From NCBI RefSeq assembly GCF_003987355.1, contig NZ_PIPR01000002.1:206177-270176 (forward strand): 64,000 nt of DNA, in the 5' to 3' direction. The position numbers were made by a program, and so were the translations under genes. The stretch is from Pseudidiomarina aestuarii (GTDB taxonomy: Bacteria > Pseudomonadota > Gammaproteobacteria > Enterobacterales > Alteromonadaceae). Every line of letters starts with the position of its first letter. The stretch's first letter is position 1. This document shows, piece after piece, positions 45,667 to 57,118 of the stretch. Under the pieces are notes generated by a model, which saw only the letters and a program-made list of their open reading frames with translations, did not search any database and was not told the DNA's origin.

Positions 45667-47301
45667 ATGGCAGCTAAAGAAGTAAAATTTGGTAATACCG
45701 CACGTCAAAAGATGCTGAAAGGCGTCAACGTGTTGGCCGATGCAGTCAAAGTCACCTTAGGTCCAAAAGGTCGCAACGTTGTCTTAGATAAGTCTTTTGG
45801 CGCTCCGGTCATCACCAAAGATGGTGTTTCTGTAGCGAAGGAAATCGAACTGGAAGACAAGTTCGAGAATATGGGCGCACAGATGGTGAAAGAAGTTGCG
45901 TCTAAAGCAAACGACGAAGCGGGTGACGGTACGACCACTGCAACGGTATTGGCGCAGTCTATCGTTAACGAAGGCTTGAAAGCCGTCGCTGCGGGTATGA
46001 ACCCAATGGATTTGAAACGCGGTATCGATAAAGCCGTTATTTCTGCGGTTGAAGAACTGAAGAAATTATCGAAGCCATGTGACAACACTAAAGCAATCGC
46101 TCAAGTCGGTACTATTTCTGCCAACTCAGACACCACTATCGGCGAAATCATCGCCAAAGCGATGGAAAAAGTGGGTCAAGAAGGCGTGATCACCGTTGAA
46201 GAAGGTCAAGCGCTGCAAGACGAGCTTGACGTGGTCGAGGGTATGCAGTTCGACCGTGGTTATTTATCTCCATACTTCATCAACAACCAAGAAAACGGCT
46301 CTGTGGAGCTAGAAAGTCCGTTTATCTTGTTGGTGGATAAGAAAATCAGCAACATTCGCGAACTACTGCCAGTGCTGGAAGGCGTTGCGAAGTCAGGCAA
46401 ACCATTGTTGATCATCGCTGAAGACATCGAAGGTGAAGCGTTAGCAACTCTGGTTGTGAACAATATGCGCGGCATCGTAAAAGTCGCAGGTGTGAAAGCG
46501 CCTGGTTTCGGTGACCGTCGTAAAGCAATGCTGCAAGATATCGCAGCTCTGACCGGTGGTACTGTGATTTCTGAAGAAATCGGTATGGAACTGGACAAAG
46601 CGCAGTTAGAGGACCTCGGTACTGCAAAACGCGTTGTGATCACCAAAGACAATACCACTATTGTTGATGGTAACGGCGACGAAGCAGCAATTGAAGGCCG
46701 TGTGGCACAGATTCGTCAGCAAATTGAAGACACGACGTCTGACTACGACCGTGAGAAGCTGCAAGAGCGTCTGGCTAAATTAGCTGGCGGCGTAGCAGTC
46801 ATCAAAGTCGGTGCTGCAACTGAAACAGAAATGAAAGAGAAGAAAGCCCGTGTTGAAGACGCATTGCACGCGACCCGTGCTGCGGTTCAAGAAGGTGTTG
46901 TGCCTGGTGGCGGTGTTGCTCTGGTTCGTGCAGCCAGCAAACTAGCTGACCTGCGTGGCGACAACGAAGACCAGAATGTCGGTATCAAGTTAGCGTTGCG
47001 CGCAATGGAATCACCATTGCGTCAAATCGCGATGAACGCTGGCGCTGAAGCTTCAGTGGTCGCGAATAATGTGAAAAATGGCGAAGGTAACTACGGTTAC
47101 AACGCCGGTAATGATACCTATGGTGACATGCTCGAGATGGGGATCTTGGATCCAACCAAGGTCACTCGTTCAGCGTTGCAGTTCGCATCATCAATCGCGT
47201 CATTGATGATCACGACTGAAGCCATGATCGCTGAAATCCCAAAAGATGAACCAGCCGCACCAGACATGGGCGGTATGGGTGGCATGGGCGGCATGATGTA
47301 A
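45667..47301 (+). CDS. groEL: Chaperonin GroEL
   Basis: A 544-residue ATP-driven folding chamber subunit. It has LGPKGRNVVLDKSFG and the ATPase motif GDGTTTATVLAQ at the N-terminal equatorial domain, an apical domain in the middle, and the flexible tail GGMGGMGGMM at the C-terminus. The last four codons and the stop lie in the 12-bp direct repeat (47290-47301) that flanks the integrated element. The insertion preserves the complete protein but removed the native terminator to beyond 57 kb. Confidence 0.98.
   Translation: MAAKEVKFGNTARQKMLKGVNVLADAVKVTLGPKGRNVVLDKSFGAPVITKDGVSVAKEIELEDKFENMGAQMVKEVASKANDEAGDGTTTATVLAQSIVNEGLKAVAAGMNPMDLKRGIDKAVISAVEELKKLSKPCDNTKAIAQVGTISANSDTTIGEIIAKAMEKVGQEGVITVEEGQALQDELDVVEGMQFDRGYLSPYFINNQENGSVELESPFILLVDKKISNIRELLPVLEGVAKSGKPLLIIAEDIEGEALATLVVNNMRGIVKVAGVKAPGFGDRRKAMLQDIAALTGGTVISEEIGMELDKAQLEDLGTAKRVVITKDNTTIVDGNGDEAAIEGRVAQIRQQIEDTTSDYDREKLQERLAKLAGGVAVIKVGAATETEMKEKKARVEDALHATRAAVQEGVVPGGGVALVRAASKLADLRGDNEDQNVGIKLALRAMESPLRQIAMNAGAEASVVANNVKNGEGNYGYNAGNDTYGDMLEMGILDPTKVTRSALQFASSIASLMITTEAMIAEIPKDEPAAPDMGGMGGMGGMM
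47290..47301. repeat. attL: 12-bp direct repeat GGCATGATGTAA at the groEL 3' end
   Basis: The same 12 bases recur at 57107-57118. They contain the last groEL codons and its stop. Together the two copies bracket the integrase-bearing element and are best read as the crossover core left after site-specific insertion. Confidence 0.85.
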
Positions 47302-47349
47302 TTTCGGTTGCATCATAAAATCCATTCAAAAACAATGAGTTGAAATTGG

Positions 47350-47380
47350 TGTAGACGAAATTGTAGACATCAATGTAGAC
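47350..47380. repeat. Three phased TGTAGAC repeats at the left end (probable integrase arm sites)
   Basis: TGTAGAC occurs at 47350, 47362 and 47374, exactly 12 bp apart in the same orientation, starting 49 bp inside attL. The same word occurs twice, again 12 bp apart, near attR. This is the layout of arm-type binding sites for the N-terminal domain of tyrosine integrases. Confidence 0.75.
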
Positions 47381-47386
47381 AGTCAG

Positions 47387-47419
47387 AAAAGGGGGGGTGT
47401 TTCGGCATCTCCCTTTTTT
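47387..47419 (+). terminator. Terminator-like hairpin supplied by the island behind groEL
   Basis: AAAAGGGGG (47387-47395) can pair with CTCCCTTTT (47409-47417, one G-T pair), with a 13-base loop and a T-run on the + strand (six T at 47414-47419). It is placed to end the groESL transcript in place of the displaced native terminator. Confidence 0.6.
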
Positions 47420-47444
47420 GTTTGCAACAAACTTAAATTTAACG

Positions 47445-47468
47445 CAAAAGAAAGCCCCTTGCGGGGCT
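47445..47468 (-). terminator. Terminator for the leftward island genes
   Basis: AGCCCC (47453-47458), TTGC loop, GGGGCT (47463-47468); on the minus strand the stem is followed by TTTCTTTTGC. It lies just past the 55-residue coiled-coil gene. Confidence 0.8.
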
Positions 47469-55713: not shown

Positions 55714-55721
55714 AATTAACC

Positions 55722-56999
55722 TCACTTCATTTTGTTACCTAACCATTCAGTTCTAATGTAATTCTCAGCTTTACTGGCGCTTTCACTCAGTTTCTGTACC
55801 TCATTGTCTTTCGCATAGTAACCGTAAGACATCGTTGAACCTCGCTTGTGACCTACGATTTCGGCAGTAATTGTCTCGGGTATGTCACAGCGTTTTAAGG
55901 CCGTGATGAACATGCCCCTGAATGAGTGGAAGCTCTTTGTTGAGTCATCTGTAATGTGGTTAGTTTTTAAAACTGAGAACCAACGGCCAAATGTCTTCCC
56001 TTCGATGCCGAGTAGTGGCGACTCATCGTCTAGTTGCTCAGCGATAACTTTTAGCTCACTGGCTATGTCTCTAGGGATAGGAACGTTTCGAGTTGCCGCT
56101 GAAGTTTTGCCCTGCTCAATAAATATGTATGGAACGCCTCCTTTTTCCATCAGATGACGCTTTTTAAGGTTACCGAGTTCACTTAAACGACAGCCAGTAA
56201 AGAGAGCTAGCTGAATGTATAGCTGGCGCTCTCTTGATTCACCGTTGATAAGCTCCATGATTTTTCGTAGTTCATGAGGCTCAAACATCTGCTTTCTATT
56301 GTTAGTAATTGGGCTAGTGTAACTGTGTCCTTCAAATGGGTTTTCACCGCTAACTTCGCCTAAGTCACGAGTATTCTTCCAAAGGGTTTTTAGACGGCTC
56401 ATGTGAGCTTGGCACGTTGCACGAGCTTTGGCCTTCTCAATCGTTGCCAGAAAGTCATAAGCATGTCGTCTCGTGATGTCATTTATAGGCATATCGACAG
56501 CATCCATAAATTCAAGGAACAGGTTTACGGACTGCTCAACTTTGCGTTGCGTTTCCTTCGATTTGTTCACGCCATGTCGATTAAGCCATTCAGCTAAAGC
56601 TTCACGAACGGTAAAGGCGTAATAGCGCTCATAATTTTCTTTGCCATTGACGGTCATGTAAGCTCGCAGTGTTAGCTCATCACCACGTTCCAACAACTTT
56701 TCAGGATAAATCCATGCATCCCAATCTTGGTTGATTTCCTTTTCAGCTCGCATTTCACGCACAAGTTCTCTGAACCTTTTATTATCATCGTCGGTTCTCG
56801 TTAATGCTGAATGAGCAAGCTCACCGTTTATCTTATCCCTTAACTTACGAGCTATATGAACATCCGATGTGTCCAAGCTACGAGAGATGGTTGCTGTGTC
56901 AGGATAGAATTTTTGTAATGCTTTAGGAACACGTCGCTGATACCACCAGACGTTACCCCGAAGCTTTAGATGGATGTTATTGCTTTTTCTTTTTGTCAT
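55722..56999 (-). CDS. Tyrosine integrase of the island
   Basis: A 425-residue site-specific recombinase. The N-terminus (IHLKLRGNVWWYQRRVPKAL) is the DUF6538-type arm-binding start, a SAM-like core-binding domain covers about 120-225, and the catalytic domain about 240-410. Catalytic residues (numbered from the ATG at 56999) are Arg271 in ALFTGCRLSELGNL, His358 and Arg361 in FHSFRGMF, His384 in VGHKRGS and the tyrosine in MSYGYY. A longer frame starts at 57035 inside a TGTAGAC repeat without a ribosome site, so I prefer 56999. The arm repeats overlap the likely promoter, which suggests self-control. Confidence 0.93.
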   Translation of the reverse strand: MTKRKSNNIHLKLRGNVWWYQRRVPKALQKFYPDTATISRSLDTSDVHIARKLRDKINGELAHSALTRTDDDNKRFRELVREMRAEKEINQDWDAWIYPEKLLERGDELTLRAYMTVNGKENYERYYAFTVREALAEWLNRHGVNKSKETQRKVEQSVNLFLEFMDAVDMPINDITRRHAYDFLATIEKAKARATCQAHMSRLKTLWKNTRDLGEVSGENPFEGHSYTSPITNNRKQMFEPHELRKIMELINGESRERQLYIQLALFTGCRLSELGNLKKRHLMEKGGVPYIFIEQGKTSAATRNVPIPRDIASELKVIAEQLDDESPLLGIEGKTFGRWFSVLKTNHITDDSTKSFHSFRGMFITALKRCDIPETITAEIVGHKRGSTMSYGYYAKDNEVQKLSESASKAENYIRTEWLGNKMK

Positions 57000-57026
57000 T
57001 TCTACCACTACAAATGAAGACACTAA

Positions 57027-57045
57027 TGTAGACATTGATGTAGAC
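57027..57045. repeat. Two phased TGTAGAC repeats at the right end (probable integrase arm sites)
   Basis: TGTAGAC at 57027 and 57039, 12 bp apart, same orientation and same phase as the three copies at 47350-47380. They lie between the integrase start and attR. Confidence 0.75.
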
Positions 57046-57106
57046 AGGTATTATCTCTGAAGCCCAGAATCCACGCAATACGTGGGCTAGGTGATAGTCA
57101 AACATG

Positions 57107-57118
57107 GGCATGATGTAA
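57107..57118. repeat. attR: second copy of GGCATGATGTAA
   Basis: An exact copy of the 12 bp at 47290-47301. The surrounding bases (CATGG before, GTCCTG after) differ from the groEL side. The sequence to its right should be the original groEL downstream region. Confidence 0.85.

Follow-up and report, generated by a model that had tools for sequence, protein, structure and literature searches.

A tyrosine-integrase island with its attachment site at the 3′ end of groEL in Pseudidiomarina aestuarii and related gammaproteobacterial elements

We describe a 9.8-kb island at positions 47290..57118 of a 64,000-nucleotide stretch of the genome of Pseudidiomarina aestuarii, a probably marine bacterium (hereafter, the window), located at the 3′ end of groEL and bounded by 12-bp direct repeats. 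It is a tyrosine-integrase island at the 3′ end of a protein-coding gene, with an integrase group of its own, a conserved attachment (att) cassette and cargo. Its sequence suggests that it was likely inserted by its own tyrosine integrase (Int) through a crossover predicted to lie within the 7-bp segment TGATGTA, leaving groEL whole and bringing in a hairpin which likely serves as the terminator of that gene; we put the probability of this reading at roughly 0.88. What the sequences show directly is the pair of repeats, an intact groEL, the integrase gene, relatives with an unoccupied site, and 20 further elements that share the site and layout. The features that define the island and its borders are as follows:

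45667..47301, forward strand: groEL, 544 aa, intact, ending in GGMGGMGGMM before the stop codon (TIGR02348 equivalog, 850.7 bits)
47290..47301, forward strand: left copy of the 12-bp repeat, attL core (exact match, genome-wide count of two)
55722..57035, reverse strand: tyrosine integrase, 437 aa, with DUF6538, SAM-like and PF00589 domains (PF00589 52.9 bits against a cut-off of 27.1)
57107..57118, forward strand: right copy of the 12-bp repeat, attR core (exact match, genome-wide count of two)
57262..57771, forward strand: DUF3016 gene, native right flank (PF11454, 131.4 bits; adjoins groEL in empty relatives)

The 12-mer GGCATGATGTAA is present in exact forward-strand copies at 47290-47301, where it ends in the TAA of groEL, and at 57107-57118, and these two are the only copies in the entire host genome (2,640,771 bases in 12 contigs), with none on the opposite strand. 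The integrase start codon is 71 bp from the right repeat, and the gene reads towards groEL; its open reading frame (ORF) is open and stop-free over 437 aa, and what we take to be the HxxR and Tyr motifs are legible in the translation. An earlier reading of the letters of this stretch (the original prediction) had pointed to an exact 12-bp repeat that includes the groEL stop, to a tyrosine integrase ending the element, and to an undamaged groEL, and it was right on all three. Together with the unoccupied relatives described below, a recombinase at one end, direct repeats and an intact target are what is expected of a tyrosine-integrase element. The groEL tail is itself a 9-bp-period repeat (CATGGGCGG x 3.4), as might be expected if the 12-bp match were a coincidence within a Gly-Met-rich groEL-like coding stretch and the DNA had arrived by some other route; with one mismatch permitted, at least two matches to the 12-mer appeared in 4 of 100 shuffles of the window. 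We consider such a coincidence highly improbable, as just two copies exist in 2.64 Mb, exactly where empty sites and the 20 other elements predict the ends to be, and the comparison of elements with empty sites contradicts it. The inserted island has a GC content of ~0.39-0.47 per 1-kb window, versus ~0.46-0.52 in the flanks. No tRNA gene was detected close to it in a scan of the window, the only ones being two tandem copies of tRNA-Gly(gcc) at 30120-30293, and an Rfam scan of 47200-57300 yielded no matches at the gathering threshold.

Unoccupied sites are common in the same genus, where relatives show 79-85% identity to the window over the groEL 3′ end. We compared the groEL 3′ region of 22 same-genus loci, excluding a 23rd match (G023) that consists of 126 bases at a contig end. 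An insert-free groEL end was found in 13 of the 22, all with the order groEL stop, terminator hairpin, DUF3016, epmB, efp, epmA; the hairpin lies no more than 100 nt from the groEL stop in all 13, and the groEL-DUF3016 gap spans 40-208 bp, with DUF3016 starts extrapolated from alignments. Subtraction of the island from the window would leave a predicted gap of 143 bp between the groEL stop and DUF3016. The original prediction had expected an empty site to read groEL stop followed directly by the sequence that starts at 57119. Aligned relatives confirm the empty junction through the order of genes, the place of the terminator and the length of the gap, and not base for base, because they are 79-85% identical at the groEL end. 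From 57119 onwards, the window itself continues with a terminator hairpin and then DUF3016, as in the empty sites; the simplest view is therefore that native sequence resumes with the copy at 57107, and that the insertion has moved the groEL terminator 9.8 kb away.

The remaining same-genus loci are heterogeneous. Two (L041 and L056) contain an element with integrase and both ends. Two others, L040 and L035, have ~117 bp of the island left end at 94-96% identity, the L035 contig ending at that point; an integrase search of their genomes (G019 and G011) gave no matches, and we read these left ends as remnants of elements. In L040, where the left end matches at 94% over 117 bp, the next sequence is a fragment that looks Rhs-like by eye, with no integrase. 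Apparent partial scars were seen by eye in L045 and L054. Such loci, along with broken or split integrases in the relatives L033, L112, L114 and L115, would suit a decayed or captive element, formerly mobile and now fixed, with an inactive integrase and with cargo kept by selection as a defence locus. We find this unlikely for the window, where the integrase is open across 437 aa and both repeats and the arm features described below are in place; moreover, a 436-aa integrase (P0001) that is 93% identical to it exists in the public protein collection, and cargo differs among elements while the ends stay conserved. The original prediction had also named island DNA in relatives without the integrase as evidence that would count against an integrated island, and such DNA was seen to a small extent, as the ~117-bp left ends of L040 and L035 and, by eye, as the apparent partial scars of L045 and L054. 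In three further loci (L043, L047 and L050), the native groEL terminator and DUF3016 are separated by unrelated DNA that has neither the element left end nor an integrase, which makes this interval look like a general spot for insertions.

Returning to the proposed integrase-mediated insertion, its predicted crossover site can be narrowed by comparing the ends of 21 distinct elements, the window included (19 from the genome searches described below, plus L032 and L033). The segment common to groEL and the right end ranges from 7 to 20 bp (12 bp in the window), and TGATGTA is shared by groEL and attR in all 21. In seven elements with TGTATCACG-like repeats (L086-L090, L117 and L118), the right-end match starts at TGATGTA itself and totals 7-9 bp, so that copying of groEL codons is not required; on this comparison, only TGATGTA and the remaining base of the stop codon need be carried by the element. 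The proposal that groEL is kept whole through reproduction of its last codons is not supported, since the left copy is the host's own up to the predicted crossover, and the element's own contribution seems to be a substitute terminator. The putative recombination and termination signals are:

47294-47300, forward strand: inferred 7-bp strand-exchange overlap TGATGTA (shortest segment common to 21 elements)
47330..47342, forward strand: IHF-like motif AAACAATGAGTTG, with one mismatch to WATCAANNNNTTR, +29 after the stop (relaxed motif match)
47350..47380, forward strand: three TGTAGAC repeats with 12-bp spacing, candidate left arm-type integrase sites (from the sequence; relatives by eye)
47386..47419, forward strand: hairpin and T-run, candidate element-borne groEL terminator (RNA fold -19 kcal/mol, z -4.53)
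57013..57046, forward strand: TGTAGAC repeats with a 12-bp period, candidate right arm-type sites overlapping the integrase start (tandem repeat AATGTAGACACT x 2.8)
57138..57165, forward strand: likely original groEL terminator, now 9.8 kb off, beyond attR (RNA fold -18.6 kcal/mol, z -5.13)

The relaxed motif WWCAANNNNTTR, a version of the IHF consensus in which one position is less strict, starts at +29 after the stop in 20 of the 21 elements and at +30 in L122; it is absent from the 13 empty sites and starts at 47 of 136,999 interior positions. By eye, it is followed in relatives by short direct repeats of the TGTAGAC, TGTTGAC, TGTAGGA or TGTATCACG types. Within the first 160 nt, a hairpin with a T-run is present in 18 of 21 elements, versus 47 of 840 interior segments, and it is likely that the element hairpin replaces the displaced groEL terminator. 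The roles assigned to IHF-like sites, arm sites and terminators are inferred from position and conservation. A seemingly covarying palindrome around +19 to +45 after the stop, noticed by eye, had been considered as a serine-recombinase site. When columns were tested in pairs across 19 non-redundant left ends, covariation was not significant (largest z ~3 among ~1080 pairs; best dyad centre 2.6), and the IHF-like reading was therefore preferred. In one case (L112/L125, from about position 8300 of L112), the attR core is directly followed by a left end that belongs to another type of groEL element; neither a second integrase gene nor a further core was found in the remainder of the L112 contig (L125), and this may be a tandem pair, a remnant, or an element running off the contig.

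Sequence comparisons place the integrase in a groEL-sited group, as a groEL specialist. Searches of 394 genomes of the order, 395 of the family and 369 of the class, which partly overlap, gave 20 genomes (window included) with matches at E <= 1.4e-56, and in 19 of the 20 the homologue lies beside the groEL 3′ end; the 20th (L115) is on a 4.3-kb contig without groEL, but has GGCATGATGTAA, the attR core, near the integrase start. None of the seven weaker homologues (E 1e-39 to 1.5e-21) was seen in such a groEL element. Around most integrase loci the stretch read covers ~17 kb towards groEL and 2-3 kb in the opposite direction; groEL is absent from it at six of the seven weak-homologue loci, one of which (L093) covers just 623 bases on the groEL-facing side, and at the seventh, L120, groEL is ~6 kb distant and lacks the left-end features. 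All four loci from a scan of named genomes end at groEL (Thalassotalea sp. G2M2-11, Gammaproteobacteria bacterium 42_54_T18, with the groEL tail only, Vibrio neptunius, and P. tainanensis). Between the two sets, L031 is the same contig as L083 and L034 the same as G010, and L032 has the groEL tail only. An integrase tree of 25 rows puts the 19 groEL rows on one side of a single branch, none of 500 shuffles giving a value as low. Related integrases were not found in viral contigs, and phage records yielded only two, partial matches at 27-37% identity; a phage origin of the integrase, which had been entertained, was dropped on these grounds.

Several observations weigh against insertion of the island by a groEL-dedicated integrase with its own arm sites and terminator. 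The tree branch dividing groEL from other integrases is weak (support 77/80), with long branches, and a larger element at a weak-homologue locus would escape stretches of ~17 kb. A same-species empty site was not found, the nearest comparison being with relatives 79-85% identical at the groEL end. The strict WATCAANNNNTTR consensus is present in 15 of 21 elements, the window site being off by one mismatch, and the relaxed motif also occurs in one (L067) of the 12 groEL downstream regions taken from the order but not belonging to the elements (of 16 order-level genomes, 13 were read and 12 used, L069 being left out for its unrecognisable groEL tail). The terminator finder, run on the 21 elements, returned nothing for L089, L117 and L122, and a simple terminator scan listed neither window hairpin, probably since its stem counting uses up the T-run. 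Finally, mobility of the element is a prediction from its sequence.

The proposed course of events is as follows. Int would pair attP with the groEL end and exchange strands within TGATGTA, assisted, by analogy with lambda, by the IHF-like site at +29 past the stop and the flanking TGTAGAC-type arm sites. The groEL coding sequence to the left of the crossover would remain untouched, with an element base completing the stop codon, and the next ~120 bases of the element would provide both the integrase arm and the new terminator. The small serine recombinase present in all 21 elements may resolve or rearrange element copies, and the cargo may guard the host against phage or other foreign DNA.

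The left arm invites comparison with that of lambda, in which the core is followed by an IHF-type site and then by arm-type repeats. The window shares with lambda attP and Int a tyrosine integrase, a predicted 7-bp overlap and the same one-arm order, and differs in having the groEL end as its target, a candidate terminator after the arm sites, and no phage structural genes found in the island. The 7-bp overlap of lambda and the IHF consensus WATCAANNNNTTR are as given in PMC7581858. Mycobacteriophage Bxb1, which uses a serine integrase and inserts inside a second, non-essential groEL copy and not at the end of the gene, resembles the island in having a groEL-family gene as attB, and differs from it in the class of integrase and in the position within the gene. 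The original prediction had drawn this parallel correctly as to phage and gene: Bxb1 is said, in the title of a 2003 paper by Kim et al., to use groEL1.

The closest parallels are staphylococcal. The integrases of staphylococcal groEL islands are of the tyrosine class, and, like the island in the window, these elements place an integrase element at the groEL 3′ end, with att over the last bases of the gene and, in SeCISE48, an intact groEL. PMC8125051 and PMC4651549 name SeCISE48, SeRIfusB, SaRIfusB and ScRIfusB as islands of this kind; in SeCISE48, att overlaps the last 18 bp of groEL without altering the gene (PMC8125051), and ScRIfusB has a 21-bp att. Target choice is therefore not new, and the claim of the original prediction that it would be unusual fails. 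By description, the window island differs from the staphylococcal ones in its DUF6538 integrase, its serine recombinase and its methyltransferase-type cargo.

The same sources describe SeCISE48 as phage-mobilised and several staphylococcal groEL islands as carrying fusidic acid resistance (PMC8125051, PMC4651549). By its att at the groEL 3′ end, the window island matches staphylococcal-type phage-inducible chromosomal islands (PICIs), and one may ask whether it, too, is a phage satellite packaged by a helper phage. The shared target, similar compactness, a capsid-family gene in the relative L090, and a weak head-maturation-protease match of the ClpP-like protein (E 9e-6) all point that way. 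However, family searches in Pfam, PHROGs, PADLOC and NCBIfam revealed no PICI packaging, interference or repressor genes among the seven window proteins, and no terminase or capsid matches; no related integrase was found in viral contigs, and the two phage records match it partially, at 27-37%. We therefore view a satellite as a doubtful alternative. Prophage structural genes (capsid, terminase, tail) were likewise not found in the island, apart from that weak protease match, nor did the same searches detect among the seven proteins any relaxase or conjugation genes of the type found in integrative and conjugative elements.

No gammaproteobacterial groEL 3′-end island was found in the open-licence literature on groEL, subscription papers being mostly outside this scope; in PMC10270631 and PMC3338528 groEL is mentioned in other connections, and in PMC12458937 GroEL is named among the genes flanking an E. 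coli island in a tRNA-Phe gene. What appears to be new, as far as sequences can tell, is a gammaproteobacterial family of 3.5-13-kb groEL-end islands with a lambda-like left arm. Going further, we lean towards an undescribed defence-island family of Gammaproteobacteria dedicated to the groEL stop, with one end cassette combining docking, IHF bend, integrase arms and a new terminator, and with Int permanently paired with a serine recombinase that does a second recombination job. If this is true, an essential gene with high expression is turned into a target where insertion does no harm. The island shows that use of the groEL end for integration extends well beyond staphylococci, and its att cassette seems also to replace the terminator, which offers a testable rule for the exploitation of highly conserved, highly expressed protein genes by elements. 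It also makes groEL downstream regions places to seek compact anti-phage cargo, and puts on offer a recombinase group with a conserved protein-gene attB.

Besides the integrase, the seven ORFs of the window island comprise the following:

47667..48560, reverse strand: ClpP/SDH-like serine protease homologue, 297 aa, cargo (PF01972, 40 bits against a cut-off of 31.3; phrog_11747)
48609..49949, reverse strand: 446-aa protein with a family-A polymerase-like palm, cargo or replication gene (alignment, model, Foldseek)
50581..53160, forward strand: N6-adenine methyltransferase, 859 aa, with an N-terminal HSDR_N-like region (PF02384, 102.9 bits; PADLOC methyltransferase matches)
53190..53744, reverse strand: small serine recombinase (resolvase/invertase), 184 aa (PF00239, 126 bits)
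53957..55027, forward strand: 356-aa protein of no known family, cargo, PIN-like by eye only (97% identical copy in L056)
55366..55725, reverse strand: 119-aa protein overlapping the end of the integrase ORF

The small serine recombinase is present in all 21 elements, with a homologue in each of the other 20. Element sizes range from about 3.5 to 13.3 kb, and cargo varies among elements as the ends stay constant. A scan of 23 cargo ORFs of relatives with Pfam, PADLOC or both gave matches for 12 and none for 11. Among the 12, seven are of restriction or defence type. Two of these are PADLOC PDC-S33 proteins, of which one also has a RelA/SpoT-like domain match, and two are an EcoRII-type enzyme with its C5 methylase; the remaining three are an AriA/PtuA-type AAA ATPase, a type IV restriction-like HNH protein and another HNH protein that matches PtuB/PDC-M01B weakly. 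The five matches outside this group consist of a further HNH protein, a pentapeptide ion-channel protein, an HATPase, a PLD-like protein whose match is below cut-off, and a phage capsid-family protein. The last is encoded inside a groEL island, at 5488-6528 of L090 (PF05065, 94.5 bits), where the other two scanned cargo proteins gave one ATPase match and no match, respectively. In L056, the 356-aa protein is 97% identical to that of the window (over 355 aa) and the polymerase-like protein 80% identical, whereas the integrases are only 32% identical; these identities indicate that cargo moves between island backbones at the same groEL site.

Among the window proteins, the 859-aa methyltransferase has a PF13588 match of 23.7 bits, under the cut-off of 25, and is a candidate single-chain restriction-modification protein. 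The 356-aa and 119-aa proteins gave no matches in Pfam, PHROGs, PADLOC or NCBIfam. No Pfam family corresponds to the 446-aa palm protein as a stand-alone protein, for which D285, R314/K318 and H400-D401-S402 are invariant across 19 aligned sequences; its structural model (pLDDT 87.0) has Taq/KlenTaq-type polymerases as its best PDB matches in Foldseek (E 2.0e-6, with a low TM of 0.30). It could be a replication gene of the element; 18 homologues were found, some of them in Pseudidiomarina.

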